A program made the translations under genes and the position numbers. From a virus: a stretch of 64,000 nucleotides of DNA. Each line of letters starts with the position of its first letter. Positions within the stretch are counted from its first letter, which is position 1. Shown here one piece after another: positions 35,333-46,667 of the stretch. The DNA lies in the IMG/VR virus record IMGVR_UViG_3300050343_000277, positions 1 through 64,000 of that record; one strand, 5' to 3'. The notes below the pieces were generated by a model. The model saw only the letters and a list, made by a program, of their open reading frames with translations. It had not been told where the DNA came from and searched no databases.

Positions 35333-35557
35333 ATGACTAAAGGATTATTGCGACCAGCAGAGGTCTGTCAGCTACTTGCTGTTTCAAGTAAGACTCTGCA
35401 GCGGTGGCGTCACTCAGGTCGATTGATGAAAGGAGTGCATTACCAGCAGTTTGGTAGTCACACCATTAGGTACGACAAAACTTGGATGCTCGATTTTGCT
35501 GAGTCTGGTGGTCGAGGCAGTCACAAGCTGAAGATTGCCGAGTATCTCAGACACTAA
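35333..35557 (+). CDS. Excisionase/AlpA-like winged HTH protein
   Basis: The 74-aa product begins LLRPAEVCQLLAVSSKTLQR WRHSG, a MerR/AlpA-type helix-turn-helix (xLLxVSxxTLxRWxxxG) with a wing ending FGSHTIRYDKTWM and a basic tail HKLKIAEYLRH. Such small proteins act as excisionases or repressors. The gene faces the integrase tail to tail with an 11-nt overlap and follows repeat region B, which may be its binding site. Confidence 0.75.
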   Translation: MTKGLLRPAEVCQLLAVSSKTLQRWRHSGRLMKGVHYQQFGSHTIRYDKTWMLDFAESGGRGSHKLKIAEYLRH

Positions 35558-37130
35558 TTGAGCTAGCGAGCTGGGCCATCAACTGAGCCTTTTCAGCAAC
35601 ACTCATGGAATTAATCATGGTGCTCAGGTCGGGCTTGCCTTCTACCTTATCCATAAGAGGAAAATTGACTACACCTAAGTACTTGCTTCTAGTAGTGCTT
35701 TCTGTATCGCCAATCCAAGTAGCTACCTGCTTGCAGCTGTACTGACCATGATGAACCATTAATGAGACATAGGTGTGCCGAAGGTTATAGGGCCTGCGGT
35801 AACGAACACCTGAATAAGCACATGCCTGCATAAAGTACCTTCTGAAGTTATGCCAATCAAACGGAAGCCTAAAGTCATCTTTTGCCTTTGGTCCCTGAAA
35901 TACTAAGTTTTTACGCCAGTCTCTATTTGTCATGCATTCCAGAACTGGTGGTAATGCTGCCTTTATTGCTTTGGCGAACAGGTCTTCAAACTCAGGCACA
36001 TAGGAATTCAGCAAAGGCTGATGCTCACATCCATTCTTGACGCATTTGAAACGCTGTTCAGGTTCAATATGTAATCTATTCCTTCTATCAACTCCAAACT
36101 CGAAAAATACAGGCTGACCATCTAGAACAAACTTCTGTGCAGCAGGTACATGAGTGCCAATTTGATGCCCTTTCCACAGCCCCATAACGTGGCTCCACCT
36201 CAACGCCAGTACTTCGTTTGGGCGACTGCCTGTAGATAGCAACAACGCAAATAACGGGAAGTACGGCTTCAAGTGCTCATGACGTAAGAATGCTTTGGTT
36301 AGCGCTGTGCATTCTTCTTGTGTAAATGGCTGAGGGCGTGAGTTCTCGTCTTTCAAACGATTATCAGCAATTATCGAATCAACGCGCTTACGTTCATTGT
36401 TAATAGGGTTGCCTCGGCCTTCGCTGTCAACAGCGCCCCAGTACTGCCCTCGCCTGACACCAGTTGACTTAGGAAACTTGGCACCTCTTGATAGAGCGGC
36501 TGATAGAAGAGCGAATGCTCCTCTTAAGGTTGTATAAGCACGGCCTGCCTTTATCCATTCAAAGTGCATCTGGTCAGCGATGTCTTCATCTAGATCTTCT
36601 GCATTGATATGGCCAAAGAATTCTCCATTCTTACTTTCCATTCTTAGCAACGTGTAAGCGTCTGCTCCATATTTATCTCTTTGATTATCAGATCCTGTCT
36701 CCTCTGACATATACCAACGCAAGCAATGTCCTAAAGTTCCGTGAGGATAATTGCGATTAATGTGCTTACGCTTCTCATGTCTAACGTTAAGTTCTCCCAT
36801 CCAGTAGCCATTCTGCATTTCTTCCAAAACCCCTTGGAAGAGCAAAAACTTCTCTGGAAATTTTTGCAAGTATTTTAGTGCATCTTCTTTGCTTGTAATC
36901 TCTATCGGGCATTGAAGATCAAGACTACGAGCAACTACTGGTCGTGCTCGTGAGTGATCTCTTGCTCGGAGACGGAAGCTTCTTGAGTTGCTTTCAATCT
37001 CTAACGCCAAAGAGCGTGACTTGCCGTGACGGGTAGGTAGATCGACTTTATAAATTTGTCCTTTTGCAGGAGCCATAAGCTGAGACCACTTGGGAGCTAT
37101 TTCCTCCACCGGATGTACTTGACGTGGCAT
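35547..37130 (-). CDS. int: Tyrosine recombinase (phage integrase)
   Basis: The 527-aa product has a C-terminal catalytic domain with STGSRPNEVLALRW near residue 305 (first Arg), YNLRHTYVSLM near 458 (HxxR-equivalent RH) and ATWIGDTESTTRSKYLGVV near 476 (the W/H position and nucleophile Tyr in SKY). The long N-terminus (about 270 residues) holds arm-binding and core-binding regions. It starts just before a repeat array and tRNA-Ala, the classic setting for tRNA-directed integration, so the phage can probably form lysogens or derives from a temperate line. Confidence 0.92.
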   Translation of the reverse strand: MPRQVHPVEEIAPKWSQLMAPAKGQIYKVDLPTRHGKSRSLALEIESNSRSFRLRARDHSRARPVVARSLDLQCPIEITSKEDALKYLQKFPEKFLLFQGVLEEMQNGYWMGELNVRHEKRKHINRNYPHGTLGHCLRWYMSEETGSDNQRDKYGADAYTLLRMESKNGEFFGHINAEDLDEDIADQMHFEWIKAGRAYTTLRGAFALLSAALSRGAKFPKSTGVRRGQYWGAVDSEGRGNPINNERKRVDSIIADNRLKDENSRPQPFTQEECTALTKAFLRHEHLKPYFPLFALLLSTGSRPNEVLALRWSHVMGLWKGHQIGTHVPAAQKFVLDGQPVFFEFGVDRRNRLHIEPEQRFKCVKNGCEHQPLLNSYVPEFEDLFAKAIKAALPPVLECMTNRDWRKNLVFQGPKAKDDFRLPFDWHNFRRYFMQACAYSGVRYRRPYNLRHTYVSLMVHHGQYSCKQVATWIGDTESTTRSKYLGVVNFPLMDKVEGKPDLSTMINSMSVAEKAQLMAQLASSISV

Positions 37131-37418: not shown

Positions 37419-37491
37419 GGGGCTTTAGCTCAGCTGGTAGAGCACTTGCATGGCATGCAAGGGGTCAGCGGTTCGAATCCGCTAAGCTCCA
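37419..37491 (+). tRNA. tRNA-Ala (anticodon GGC)
   Basis: 73-nt cloverleaf: acceptor GGGGCTT/AAGCTCC including the Ala identity pair G3-T70, D arm GCTC/GAGC with AGCTGGTA loop, anticodon stem CTTGC/GCAAG with loop ATGGCAT (anticodon GGC), T stem AGCGG/CCGCT with loop TTCGAAT, discriminator A. CCA is not encoded. A complete tRNA next to the integrase may be an attachment site, a working tRNA or both. The stretch 37492-37633 holds no gene that I can see. Confidence 0.95.
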
Positions 37492-40647: not shown

Positions 40648-41816
40648 ATGGCTAATCTATCGTTTAAAGAGTTTGAAAACTTTTTCAAGTATTACAACTC
40701 AGAAGCTCAACAGAAGGAAGGTATTCGGATACTGTATGGGCAAATGAGGGATATATTGAAAGATAATGAACATGCTTGGGTTAAGACTTACCGTGACAAG
40801 CTTGAGGTTACAAGCAGCACCATATTAAGTGTGCCATTTCAAAGTCAAAACGATAATTCTTCTGGAACGGGATTTAGAGAATGCTTCTCAAGCAGCATGG
40901 CCATGGTCGCCATGTACTACGGAAAGATTGATAACGATGACGATTACAACGCGATCCGTAAGCAATATGGTGATACAACAGATGCACAAGCACAAGTTAA
41001 AACTTTGAAGTCACTTGGTCTTGACGCAGAGTTTAAATTTGATGGTACAACTCAAACATTGAAAGATGCTATTGATTCAGGAAGACCTGTAGCAGTGGGC
41101 TGGTTGTTTGAAGGACCAGTCAGTTCGCCTTCAGGTGGAGGCCACTATTCAGTAATTATTGGATACGACGATGAGAATGAAACATGGATTGTAAATGATC
41201 CAAATGGAGAAGCCTCACTTCGCAGTGGAGGATACACAGCTAATTTAGATGGTGCAGGTATAAAGTACAGCTACAAAAACTTTAACCCACGTTGGACTGT
41301 TGAAGGAGAAGGCACCGGTTGGTATATGGATGTAAGTGATCCGAGCGCAAAAAAGTAAAGGCGGGAGCTCATGTTTCTGAGCCTTCCCGCACATCACAAG
41401 CAGGAATTGACCTTATTAAGTCCTTTGAGGGCTTAGAGCTTGAAGCGTACTATTGCGCTAGCTCGATACTCTCGATTGGATATGGCCACACTCAGCATGT
41501 GTTTGAGGGTCAAGTCATCACCAAAGATGATGCGGAGGAGCTATTACGTAAAGACCTTATGTGGTTCGAAGAGCAGGTTGTCAAAATTATTCTGCCTGTC
41601 CTTACTCAACATGAGTTTGATGCAATTGTCAGCTTTGCATTTAACGTAGGTAGTAGCGCACTAGAAAACAGCACTTTCACTCGACGCATAAATGACGGCG
41701 AGAACAAAGCACTGTGCTTTCAACAGGAATTCCCTAAATGGGTGAATGGGCCGAACGGGCCTCTCCCCGGATTAATCCGAAGGAGAGCCGCTGAAATTAA
41801 GCTATCTGCTAATTAG
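40648..41816 (+). CDS. Two-part endolysin: C39-like peptidase joined to GH24 lysozyme by -1 frameshift
   Basis: Frame 0 (40648-41358, 236 aa) has a helical start, then a papain-like C39 domain: VPFQSQ, FRECFSSSMAMV (Cys), GGHYSVIIGYDD (His), IVNDPNGE (Asn/Asp). It stops in TAA right after AKK. In the -1 frame a GH24 lysozyme follows, with GIDLIKSFEGLELEAYYC (catalytic Glu), LSIGYGHT and AIVSFAFNVG, ending at 41816. That lysozyme frame, open from 41340, has no ATG, GTG or TTG before its catalytic core. The fused product would be 389 aa and cut both peptide and glycan bonds. Frame 0 alone yields a peptidase-only form. Confidence 0.8.
41349..41390 (+). other. -1 ribosomal frameshift signal: slippery site, spacer, hairpin
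   Basis: A AAA AAG (41349-41355) is in phase with codons GCA AAA AAG TAA. A 5-nt spacer TAAAG (41356-41360) follows. Then GCGGGA pairs with TCCCGC, and inside it GCTCA pairs with TGAGC around TGTTTC: 6+5 bp with a 2-nt bulge (41361-41390). The zero-frame stop is the first spacer codon. Confidence 0.75.
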
Positions 41817-42101: not shown

Positions 42102-45100
42102 TTACCGAACAAAGTAGCGGTCTAAGGTATCGGACAACTCACCCATCTTAATCCACCTAGAACCTATAGGAGAACCTTTAACTACTGGTAATTTTCCAAT
42201 TAAACCAACAGTATCCCATTCCTTACGTTCTGATCTTGGAATATAGACTTTGCTTGGATCATAAGCACTTGATACAATTTGCTTTGGCTTATTGACAACG
42301 CAATTTTGATCAATTGCCCAACGTGGAATACCTGTCTGTATTCCATCAGCCATGGCTTTTTCAATACGTGGAAGATCTGACAAAGGAAAGCCTTCACAAG
42401 CCCCCCAGCTATTTGGATCACTTGCAATTGGCTGGTTGATAGGTACTCCATCTTTATATTCTTTGTTCCAAATCAACCATAACTCGTTTTCTTCAACAGG
42501 TTTACCAAAAGAATCTTTCTCATACATTCCATGCCAAGATAATTCCGCTGCATCACCAACAAATGCTGGATAAGCTGAAATAACGCCAATAATACTTTCA
42601 CTATCGTCTTCCGCTGTTGCAGCACGAATTTTGCCATCTTGAAGTAAGACTACAGTCACACCCCTTCTGTCTTCATCATTAACGTTACCATCTTCCCACT
42701 CAAAATATTCTGCATAGTCAGCAGGGACATTGTTCCAAGCTCCATCTGTATAACATTGACCGTTTGATTGAATTCGTACTTTATCAGCAGCTTGGTTAAC
42801 ACGGACACGAAGAACATAATCACTATTAGATGTAGAGCGTCCGGAAATTGCAGTGTAAGAATTACTATTGCCTCCGTACGATAATATGCCAATACCACCA
42901 CCCCAGCCTACTGGCGCATAAACCTGATTAGGGGTTGCTTCATCTGATTCAACACGGCCAGATCGAATACCACCTTTTACATCAAAACGGCCCATTGCAG
43001 AACAGGCTAAATATTGATCTTGATCGTAATCAATAGTGCCATCAGTATCTGATTTGATCCCATACAAAGCTTTTCTATCATCTGCATCCTCAAATACTGC
43101 AGTCAATCTCGCATAAGCGCGATAGTTAGTTGAATACAGCAAGCCACTCGCTGTGGGGTTACCGTTATAACAATGAAATCCATAGCCATTACCAGTACGC
43201 CCATAGTAATTTGTAGCTGTAGCGGTGGTAGTACTTTGCGTCCGGCCTGCATACATACTTCCTAAGCCCCAATGCGATCCGCTAACATCGAGTTTGTGAA
43301 CAATAGCAGTATTACCCGCTTGGTCTTTTACAGCAGAAATAAAATGATGTGTACTTTCATTAGTACTTTCATTTGTTTTGCCACGCCAATCAGCAGCGAT
43401 TTGCGTATAGGAAGTCCATTCATTTTCGGCCTGGTTAGCAGCATCCCTGGCGTAAGTACTTATTGCATTACTTGACCCGGAATTGTAAGCGGCCATATTA
43501 TAACCAGCGTAAATATTATCTTGAACATAAACACGACGAGCACTGGAATCAACCCTAACTGCAGCAAGTGAGCTACTATTTTCATCAGTAATAATTAAGT
43601 CGTCATCAGCTAATAACTTTAAATAGAGATGTGAGCCATCATGCACCATCTGAGCGTCATCACCGGTGCCAAATCTCAAAATGTCGTTATCAGCCAAGTC
43701 AATTGCACCTCGAACGTTTAATGTCGATGAAATGGATACATTCTTGATATAGGCGTTGGCCCAGTACTTGCTTGACCCACCGAGAGTGCATGTTTCTGTG
43801 ACCTCTGGCCGGAAGGTTCCATCATCTTCCAGGCGAACTACGTTTGTGCCATTATCTTGGAAGATAATTCCACTAGCCTTTTGATTGATATACAGCCAAC
43901 CATTGGCATCGAAGCTCATTGTGAAATCATCACTAGAACCGAAACGAACTTCTTGTGCATCACTAATATCCAAGTGCCCTCTAATATTTACAACCGCGTT
44001 AAAAGTAGTACTACCAGTCTTTGTAGCCGCTACATCGCTCCTAAGGAATTGTGTAGAATCAAGGCCATCTAGTTTATTAGCGTTATCTACTGGGTATGTT
44101 GTAAGCATCACCGTCCCTGATTCATCAGGGAAAGTGTATGTCCGGTCAGTAGTAAGGCTTTCAAAACTCAAATATCCTTCAATAGTTGTTTGTCCTGATT
44201 TTGCGAACCTATATGAAGAAACACCATTACTAGCACGGAAATAGATGACCCCAGGTTCATCAATACCTGCATTAACAAAGACATGATCAGACGCATATAA
44301 CTTAAGGTCTTTACCTGTGCCGTTAGCCTTGATTTCGATATTGGCTTGCTTTTCAATATTTGAAGGAATACGATCTTCACTAATCGTGCCAGTTGTGATA
44401 TCTGTTCCAGCAATACCGTTAGTGATAGTTAGGTCATCGACATAGCAATGCGACCACCGCATTGTATCTGTACCAAGGGTGAAATTGCTATCAGTAAAAG
44501 GTACAACATTTGATCTAGGAGTCACAACAGCATTAGTGGTGCCAAGATAAAGCAAGCCTGCAGAAAAATCACGCCAAATATAGTTTCTGCTTCCGCTAGG
44601 TTCTGTAAGATCTCTGACTATAAAATCAACATCATCTGCTCTTATATCTACTGAGCCGCTGCCAAAAGTTTGCCCGTCGCCTCTAACAAACGATCCAGCA
44701 TGTAAACCATCTAACTGATCTGCATTTAGATTCGTAACTACAGTAGAACTAGTAACAATAAGAGGTGCAGTACCTTGGCTTGCTGTTGTTGTAAGTGAAC
44801 CGTAAACAGTTGCACCAATATCAGTAGTTTTTAGACGTATTGCATCGTTTTCATTTAGCTGTACAAAAGTTCTAGCGGTACTGGAGTCAGCAACAAGCAT
44901 CGTCTGAGTAATACCAGCAGTATTGTCACCATTAATAAGAATGTTTCCATCACTATTACGGTAGTTTTGAATAATATTATTATTAGAGCTGCTGTTATGG
45001 AATATTCGAAAATCGGAACTATTGCCAAACTGTAGTTCGACATTATCTTGGAACTCCATTGTGTTGGTAATATTAGAAGCAACATTAGAACGAATAAAGT

Positions 45101-46667
45101 TGCTTGAATCATTGCCATCGAGAGTATCTGCATCTAGGCCAGATCCTGCACCATCATTCCCTGCATGCCAAATCAAGTTACCATCAATTCTCATAGAACC
45201 ACTATGAGTACCGACATTTTCAAAATCTAAGTCGAGACCATTATTGTTCTGTTTCAGATTCCACTTAGAGGCTGCATTATATTGGAATTTGATTAAGATC
45301 CTATCACCATCACTATTAAATTTAAAATCAGCAAGATTTGCGTTAAACGTTGTACTTACATCAGACCTAAGGAATGAAGTGGCATGGACACCGTCAACGG
45401 CATCAGCGTTTAAATTGGCTACTAATGTTGAACTAGCAACGATTAAAGGAGATGTCCCATTTGCGATCGTAGATTCGAGTTGATCACTTTTATGAATGCC
45501 AGTAGTTGTGGAACCATGAGCTTTTGTTTCCAGCTTAGGATCATTGTCAAAAAATAGCTTGACAGATCCGTCGTCATTGCAGACAATTGATTGTTCATTT
45601 GCCTTAGCTCTAAGAACAATATTACCGCCGTCATCATCATCTACATTACAACTAAGGACCAAATTACCGGTATTATTATCAATAAATGCTGTGCTTCCAG
45701 TATGGTAGATCTGAAGATCTCCATCGTTACCAAACATAGCTTTTTGGTTATCCTGCCATTCAGTACTTGAAGTTACTTCTGTTAAAGCATCAGATCGAAT
45801 AAAACTAGCAGCATGCAATCCGTCAAGCTTGTCTGAATTATCAATTGTGCTACTGATAAGAGCAATCGTACCAGACACGTTAGGGTAGGTAAATGTCCGG
45901 TCAGCAGTAAGGCTTTCGAAATCTAATTTTCCTTCAATTGTTACTTGGCCGGCTTTGGTAAAACGATATGACGCTTGCCCATTGTTCCCAGTAAATTTAA
46001 TATAACTGCCTGTATTAAGTGCTCTTACTCTTACATGTTGTTCCGATTTTAAGTCCAAGGCGTTACTAGCACCTGTCGCCTTAATCGTGATATTGTCGGC
46101 TAACGTGTATGTTGCAGGCATTCTTGCTGTATCAATAGTGCCTTGCGATATATTTCCTCCATCGAGTGAAGTTAGTGCGCTACCAGTACCTGAAAAGCTG
46201 CTAGCAATAACTTGACCACTGACCTGCAAGGGTGCTGTGGGTGATGTGACACCGATGCCTACTTGTCCAGTAGGAAGCACTACAAGCTTGGTAGCTCCAC
46301 CGCTTGCAAGCTCTAACAGATACGTTGAACCACCACTTACTTTTAGTCCACCATTAAAATCAGTTGTAGAAGAAGACTGAACAACTTGCGCTCCTATCCC
46401 TGATCCAAGCTTGAGATAGCGAGCATCTAGAGTTGCCCCCTGACTATCTGTTATATCTGGGTAGCCTTGAATGTCACTTGGAATATTACCTCTAGCATTT
46501 ACCCCAGCGATACGCACAATGGCATCACTACTATCTTTAATAAAAATTGAAGGGTCGTTCTCGTTATAGTTAATAGCAATTTCGCCATACTGCATTTGTG
46601 AAGCGGTAGGCTCTTTGGCATTACCGCCGTCTAATATGACTGATCTCTTTAATTGAATCTTTGCCAT
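42102..46667 (-). CDS. Long tail fibre/spike with C-terminal Peptidase_G2-like autocleavage domain
   Basis: The 1521-aa product begins MAKIQLKRSVILDGGNAKEP (fibre N-terminus style). It contains many repeats of the kind NADQLDGLHAGSFVRGD, at roughly 100-200 residue spacing, alternating with FGNSSDFRIFH and WSHCYVDDL beta modules. The last 200 residues match the Peptidase_G2 chaperone type: ADYAEYFEWEDGN, EDRRGVTVVL and IIGVISAYPAFVGDAAEL. Such domains fold the trimer and are cut off. It is the likely receptor-binding fibre. Confidence 0.85.
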   Translation of the reverse strand: MAKIQLKRSVILDGGNAKEPTASQMQYGEIAINYNENDPSIFIKDSSDAIVRIAGVNARGNIPSDIQGYPDITDSQGATLDARYLKLGSGIGAQVVQSSSTTDFNGGLKVSGGSTYLLELASGGATKLVVLPTGQVGIGVTSPTAPLQVSGQVIASSFSGTGSALTSLDGGNISQGTIDTARMPATYTLADNITIKATGASNALDLKSEQHVRVRALNTGSYIKFTGNNGQASYRFTKAGQVTIEGKLDFESLTADRTFTYPNVSGTIALISSTIDNSDKLDGLHAASFIRSDALTEVTSSTEWQDNQKAMFGNDGDLQIYHTGSTAFIDNNTGNLVLSCNVDDDDGGNIVLRAKANEQSIVCNDDGSVKLFFDNDPKLETKAHGSTTTGIHKSDQLESTIANGTSPLIVASSTLVANLNADAVDGVHATSFLRSDVSTTFNANLADFKFNSDGDRILIKFQYNAASKWNLKQNNNGLDLDFENVGTHSGSMRIDGNLIWHAGNDGAGSGLDADTLDGNDSSNFIRSNVASNITNTMEFQDNVELQFGNSSDFRIFHNSSSNNNIIQNYRNSDGNILINGDNTAGITQTMLVADSSTARTFVQLNENDAIRLKTTDIGATVYGSLTTTASQGTAPLIVTSSTVVTNLNADQLDGLHAGSFVRGDGQTFGSGSVDIRADDVDFIVRDLTEPSGSRNYIWRDFSAGLLYLGTTNAVVTPRSNVVPFTDSNFTLGTDTMRWSHCYVDDLTITNGIAGTDITTGTISEDRIPSNIEKQANIEIKANGTGKDLKLYASDHVFVNAGIDEPGVIYFRASNGVSSYRFAKSGQTTIEGYLSFESLTTDRTYTFPDESGTVMLTTYPVDNANKLDGLDSTQFLRSDVAATKTGSTTFNAVVNIRGHLDISDAQEVRFGSSDDFTMSFDANGWLYINQKASGIIFQDNGTNVVRLEDDGTFRPEVTETCTLGGSSKYWANAYIKNVSISSTLNVRGAIDLADNDILRFGTGDDAQMVHDGSHLYLKLLADDDLIITDENSSSLAAVRVDSSARRVYVQDNIYAGYNMAAYNSGSSNAISTYARDAANQAENEWTSYTQIAADWRGKTNESTNESTHHFISAVKDQAGNTAIVHKLDVSGSHWGLGSMYAGRTQSTTTATATNYYGRTGNGYGFHCYNGNPTASGLLYSTNYRAYARLTAVFEDADDRKALYGIKSDTDGTIDYDQDQYLACSAMGRFDVKGGIRSGRVESDEATPNQVYAPVGWGGGIGILSYGGNSNSYTAISGRSTSNSDYVLRVRVNQAADKVRIQSNGQCYTDGAWNNVPADYAEYFEWEDGNVNDEDRRGVTVVLLQDGKIRAATAEDDSESIIGVISAYPAFVGDAAELSWHGMYEKDSFGKPVEENELWLIWNKEYKDGVPINQPIASDPNSWGACEGFPLSDLPRIEKAMADGIQTGIPRWAIDQNCVVNKPKQIVSSAYDPSKVYIPRSERKEWDTVGLIGKLPVVKGSPIGSRWIKMGELSDTLDRYFVR

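Follow-up and report, generated by a model that had tools for sequence, protein, structure and literature searches.

Organization of the lysin locus

The stretch of DNA analysed here (the window) comprises 64,000 nucleotides, positions 1 to 64,000 of the IMG/VR virus record IMGVR_UViG_3300050343_000277, which has 67,104 bases. On its plus strand a C39-like peptidase frame runs into a GH24 lysozyme frame shifted by -1 (Table 1). The zero-frame product matches Peptidase_C39_2 (PF13529; E = 8e-16, Pfam) and a PHROG endolysin profile (E = 7e-76), and together with its Cys-His-Asp residues this assigns it to the putative C39-like peptidase endolysins. A low-confidence AlphaFold model of the C39 domain (mean pLDDT 60), used for fold class only, resembles C39 peptidase folds, and a search of the C39 profile against the sequences of solved structures gave no match. 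In the alignment, the N-terminal helical module matches modules of other cyanophage lysins that stand before a C39, GH24 or GH19-like domain. In DSL-LC02, the separate peptidase and lysozyme each bear a copy of about 50 aa (L281:1492-1644 and L281:2522-2674), and these copies make the module a candidate domain for binding or pairing.

The -1 frame, open between 41340 and 41816, begins only 9 nt upstream of the heptamer and matches Phage_lysozyme (PF00959; E = 1.5e-37, Pfam) and a PHROG endolysin profile (E = 1e-49). Its GH24 motif consists of E27, C36 and S42, with T at the place of S42 in the relatives; profile match and catalytic spacing both point to a GH24 lysozyme. The initial annotation had described a peptidase frame ending GCA AAA AAG TAA, a lysozyme open in the -1 frame without an ATG, GTG or TTG before its catalytic Glu, and a heptamer followed after 5 nt by an 11-bp hairpin. 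All of these elements are present in the sequence at the positions given. The complete lysozyme is open only in the -1 frame, and the first ATG, GTG or TTG of the -1 frame is the GTG at 41499, 72 nt past the catalytic Glu codon.

Table 1. Features of the lysin gene in the window
Feature	Position	Strand	Basis or remark
C39-like cysteine peptidase, zero frame, 236 aa	40648..41358	+	ATG start; stop TAA 41356-41358
N-terminal helical module, ~49 aa	40648..40794	+	aligned with modules of other cyanophage endolysins
Putative catalytic Cys79 / His166 / Asp184	codons 40882-40884, 41143-41145, 41197-41199	+	invariant in alignment
Slippery heptamer A_AAA_AAG	41349..41355	+	zero frame GCA AAA AAG; position conserved in relatives
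Spacer TAAAG, 5 nt, including the zero-frame stop	41356..41360	+	sequence
Predicted stimulatory hairpin, 11 bp (5+6), 2-nt bulge, 6-nt loop	41361..41390	+	folding; kept in relatives
GH24 lysozyme domain, -1 frame, 155 aa, begins KKVKAGAHVSEP	41349..41816	+	Pfam, PHROG
Catalytic E27 of GH24	41427-41429	+	E-8-C-5-S/T spacing typical of the GH24 family

The predicted hairpin has a folding energy of -17.8 kcal/mol. Its fold z is -3.7 when 52 nt are folded and -2.6 when 61 nt are; taken by itself it is a moderate signal, with z varying between -2.3 and -3.7 according to the segment used. It is not terminator-like, since no T-run follows it, and it was not called as a terminator. The heptamer AAAAAAG is not enriched in the window (20 observed against 21.3 expected), and the case for frameshifting therefore rests on comparison. 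An in-frame heptamer within the frame overlap, a hairpin at short spacing and the conservation of both, described below, are consistent with a site of -1 frameshifting.

A holin was sought near the lysin, and the single hydrophobic ORF found there (44855-45133, minus strand) is an unconvincing candidate, as it sits within a 1521-aa gene in another frame.

Conservation of the slippery site in two groups of phages

Relatives were sought in IMG/VR and genome contigs as C39 followed by GH24 in another frame. Seven distinct split lineages were found, and the shift is -1 in every one: the window (L002), L003, L006 (the same as L007), L271 (a contig of a TMED88 MAG), L008, L099, and L100 with the near-identical L184. 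The heptamer A_AAA_AAG stands immediately before TAA or TAG in six of the seven; in L100/L184 it is C_CCA_AAG, followed by one more codon and then the stop. Among the last five codons of the peptidase, an in-frame X_XXY_YYZ is thus found in all seven split lineages versus 3 of 103 other C39 termini (Fisher p = 3.8e-9). One of these three, L101 (232-980), has the heptamer at the peptidase stop and a -1 frame reduced to 12 codons; it is a relic of a lost GH24 and was counted as such, not as support. L204 and L231, also C39 termini with a heptamer, were not counted because of a short -1 frame or an ordinary ATG gene downstream. Two of the related loci bear additional stop codons: an in-frame TAA lies within the C39 domain of L008 (L008:2335-2337) where the relatives have GAA, which may reflect a mutation or an error in the assembly, and in L029 one stop codon (L029:2933-2935) divides GH24 and C39 in the same frame.

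A second group was found among T4-like cyanophages. In the cultured phage S-PM2 (AJ630128.1, 115534-116717; L277) the peptidase gene ends GAT GCA AAA AAG TAA, and its -1 frame holds a full GH24 domain; the putative lysin annotated there is only 72 aa and lies inside this domain. The S-PM2 peptidase used as a query gave 80 loci, which with the references S-PM2, ACG-2014f, S-CREM1 and DSL-LC02 make 84. The -1 split is present in 58 of them (45 non-redundant), and all split loci except one have a heptamer, A_AAA_AAG in 56 cases and A_AAA_AAA in one. The remaining loci comprise three unbroken C39-GH24 fusions, ACG-2014f included, the unbroken GH24-C39 fusion of S-CREM1, DSL-LC02, where GH24 is a separate gene farther along, and 21 loci in which no GH24 was found, one of them cut by a contig end. 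In the cultured phage S-CAM7 (KU686213.1, 157736-158988; L366) the heptamer is U_UUU_UUU, within a homopolymer run of 8 T, and is followed after 5 nt by a hairpin of z -4.4; again only a 72-aa lysin fragment is annotated within a full GH24 domain. The lysin annotation of both S-PM2 and S-CAM7 could be corrected on this basis.

The recurrence of the split bears on the possibility that a sequencing error or recent mutation has broken a single-frame fusion, in which case the window should be the sole outlier among unbroken relatives. Unbroken C39-GH24 fusions are indeed known in ACG-2014f, L109/L111, L339 and L361, and they appear as alternative architectures, as the -1 split recurs across many independent contigs and cultured phages. 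Moreover, a resequenced deletion mutant of S-PM2 is identical over 1300 nt, with six A and a G again at the site, none of the C39-to-GH24 pairs found was split at +1, and purifying selection acts on both domains. An error or a recent mutation has, in our opinion, a next to negligible probability. The conservation of the heptamer in 7/7 and 57/58 split relatives lends strong support to the -1 frameshift proposed in the initial annotation to join the two domains.

The mechanism could also be transcriptional, with RNA polymerase lengthening the homopolymer by an A (or U) and a part of the mRNAs bearing the fused frame as a result. In favour of this, runs of 6-7 A occur in most members and S-CAM7 has 8 T; however, a run of six is short for the polymerase, and CCCAAAG of L100/L184 has no long enough run, so that transcriptional slippage is disfavoured as a general cause. 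C_CCA_AAG obeys the tandem-slippage rule without a homopolymer. The conserved covarying stems a few nucleotides downstream, described below, also suit ribosomal pausing, and we regard polymerase slippage as extremely unlikely.

Hairpins, covariation and overlapping starts

A hairpin is predicted in all seven split lineages of the window's own type, starting about 5-7 nt past the heptamer. Its stem sequence varies by lineage, being GCGGG...CCCGC in four and GGTCGG/CCGACC in L008, and the stems are long in L099 (z -6.4) and L100 (z -4.6). For the 52 members folded from the two groups, fold z has a median of -3.4 and lies below -2 in 77%, with spacers mostly of 2-8 nt; the 103 control C39 termini, for which the folded stretch differs slightly from that of the members, have a mean of -0.25. 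In a subgroup of 17 sequences with a 14-bp stem, 98.7% of the stem cells are paired and four pairs have changed on both sides; none of 500 shuffles matched this pairing and these two-sided changes, and versions of the stem slid along the alignment are only 30-48% paired. As the stem lies within the GH24 coding frame, part of its conservation is protein-driven, and the two-sided changes are the stronger argument.

The members also differ in the presence of start codons. This bears on a rival reading in which the lysozyme is translated on its own, initiating internally or at a non-canonical codon of the -1 frame and coupled to termination of the peptidase. Such translation is likely in a minority: in seven members (L283, L284, L315, L328, L343, L344 and L349) an ATG or GTG forms an ATGA or GTGA overlap with the stop of the peptidase, and one of them has lost the heptamer (GCA GCA AAG TCG TGA); in S-SRM01 a start overlaps the C39 stop with the heptamer retained. 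In addition, canonical starts lie close to the site in L099 and L100, and the window has ATT codons at +57 and +66 relative to the heptamer. The lack of starts before the catalytic Glu seen in the window is only partly conserved: it recurs in L003, L006, L271, L008, S-PM2 and S-CAM7, but overall just 23 of the 52 members wholly lack a canonical start before this residue, and internal initiation may occur in some of the others. However, in the window and these six relatives the absence of ATG, GTG and TTG stands against separate translation, and so does the distribution of hairpins, which are absent from the seven members with an overlapping start and present in those without one (mean z -0.2 versus -3.6, p = 6e-5). 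As an explanation for the arrangement as a whole, separate translation is very unlikely. The simplest reading of the two kinds of junction is that frameshifting and termination-reinitiation have been exchanged in evolution.

Both domains are under purifying selection: dN/dS between the window and L003 is near 0.1 for both (0.09 for GH24), in the second group it is about 0.17 for GH24 and 0.13 for C39, and the overall ranges are about 0.09-0.17 and 0.08-0.13, respectively. In the GH24 tree, which is midpoint-rooted and whose bootstrap is not fully settled, the lineages of the window's type make up one clade (100/98) on the same side as reverse-order GH24-C39 fusions such as that of S-CBS2, and the S-PM2 group lies across a fully supported split from it. 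Each group has its GH24 domains in a fully supported clade of its own, which suggests that the frameshift arrangement arose at least twice.

Proposed frameshift-built lysin and its relation to known systems

Taken together, these comparisons make it very probable that the lysin gene of the window is decoded by -1 programmed ribosomal frameshifting into a peptidase-only and a peptidase-lysozyme form. Ribosomes that terminate at TAA would release the C39 peptidase, N-terminal module included; others, after pausing at the hairpin and slipping from A_AAA_AAG to AAA_AAA_G, would continue into GH24 and give a fusion of about 389 aa. The slippage would take place in the host at some efficiency; the tRNA-Lys content of the host affects slippage on A_AAA_AAG. 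A fixed ratio of the two forms is expected from frameshifting, and both may cooperate in lysis, probably as a fixed mixture cutting the peptide and glycan bonds of peptidoglycan. That this ratio times lysis is speculation. Production of both forms may also be neutral and not needed, since relatives exist as unbroken fusions, coupled genes or C39 alone. At the same time, C39 is paired in several ways (with GH24, GH19-like and glucosaminidase domains) and the small module is common, so that the cutting of both peptide and glycan seems to be a common need of cyanophage lysins.

The proposed signal conforms to the -1 frameshifting of bacterial dnaX and IS elements, which uses A_AAA_AAG and a downstream hairpin (PMC4066793, PMC5009743), in its heptamer class, in the stop that follows soon after and in the hairpin a few nucleotides downstream; slippage on X_XXY_YYZ with such a hairpin predicts two products with one N-terminus. 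In contrast to dnaX, where the product is shortened, and IS elements, where a transposase is made, here a phage lysis enzyme would gain a second catalytic domain. The frameshift of tail assembly chaperones (lambda G-GT; PMC10885494) likewise lets a tailed phage make an extended as well as a short product from a single start, but the lysin is not a morphogenesis gene, and enzymes are encoded in both of its frames.

Single endolysin genes giving two products with a common part are known in CTP1L, LysIME-EF1 and phi2638A (PMC4777826, PMC7098653, PMC12203907, PMC9430671). There the short form is C-terminal and comes from an internal start, whereas in the window it would be the N-terminal enzyme and the long form would require a frameshift. 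The window does not fit a two-polypeptide endolysin made by an internal start (iTSS), as its GH24 lies in the other frame and no canonical start precedes the Glu. The unbroken cyanophage lysins of S-CBS2 (GH24-C39), S-CBS1 (glucosaminidase-C39), S-B68 (C39-GH19-like) and ACG-2014f (C39-GH24) also combine C39 with a glycan-cutting domain, several of them with the same N-terminal or linker module, but do so in one frame and with one product. C39 and a GH19-like domain form a single ORF in S-B68 (L014:1495-2793) and ATGA-overlapping genes in S-CREM2 (L013:2498-3702), and these fused and coupled states parallel those of C39 and GH24.

The suggestion that no frameshifted two-domain phage lysin is established holds for the open-access literature, in which we found no frameshift-built two-domain endolysin, but needs qualification for lysins in general. 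The PRFect paper (PMC10885494) lists lysins among the genes known to have a frameshift, citing Shearman 1994; as far as this case is described in PMC3111421, it concerns a lysozyme-like lysin and a holin-like protein, and so resembles the window in being a phage lysin gene with overlapping frames and, by that description, differs from it in not being a two-domain fusion. The lysin proposed here joins two known kinds of systems, phage frameshifting and two-product endolysin genes.

More broadly, frameshifting of the lysin gene appears to be used by many phages infecting marine as well as freshwater cyanobacteria, the long-studied S-PM2 among them. We consider it likely that cyanophages have evolved, at least two times and with three heptamers, a frameshift-built two-enzyme endolysin that gives a fixed mixture of an endopeptidase and an endopeptidase-muramidase, is exchangeable with an overlapping start or an unbroken fusion, and is unreflected in the annotation of S-PM2 and S-CAM7. 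If so, programmed frameshifting would be placed at the lysis step of tailed phages, an additional route to multi-product endolysins would be available, and the lysin annotation of model cyanophages would be corrected. Frameshift, overlapping start, unbroken fusion and peptidase alone offer a natural comparison for the purpose of the two-enzyme ratio.

The window virus itself is probably a cyanophage, because the 109 phage records matched by its peptidase are cyanophages by name, with the exception of one uncultured fosmid phage. Elsewhere in the window, a tRNA-Ala (GGC) gene (37419-37491, plus strand) and an integrase-like gene with a weak Pfam match (35547-37130, minus strand) are separated by about 290 bases, and the tRNA gene is a possible attachment site.
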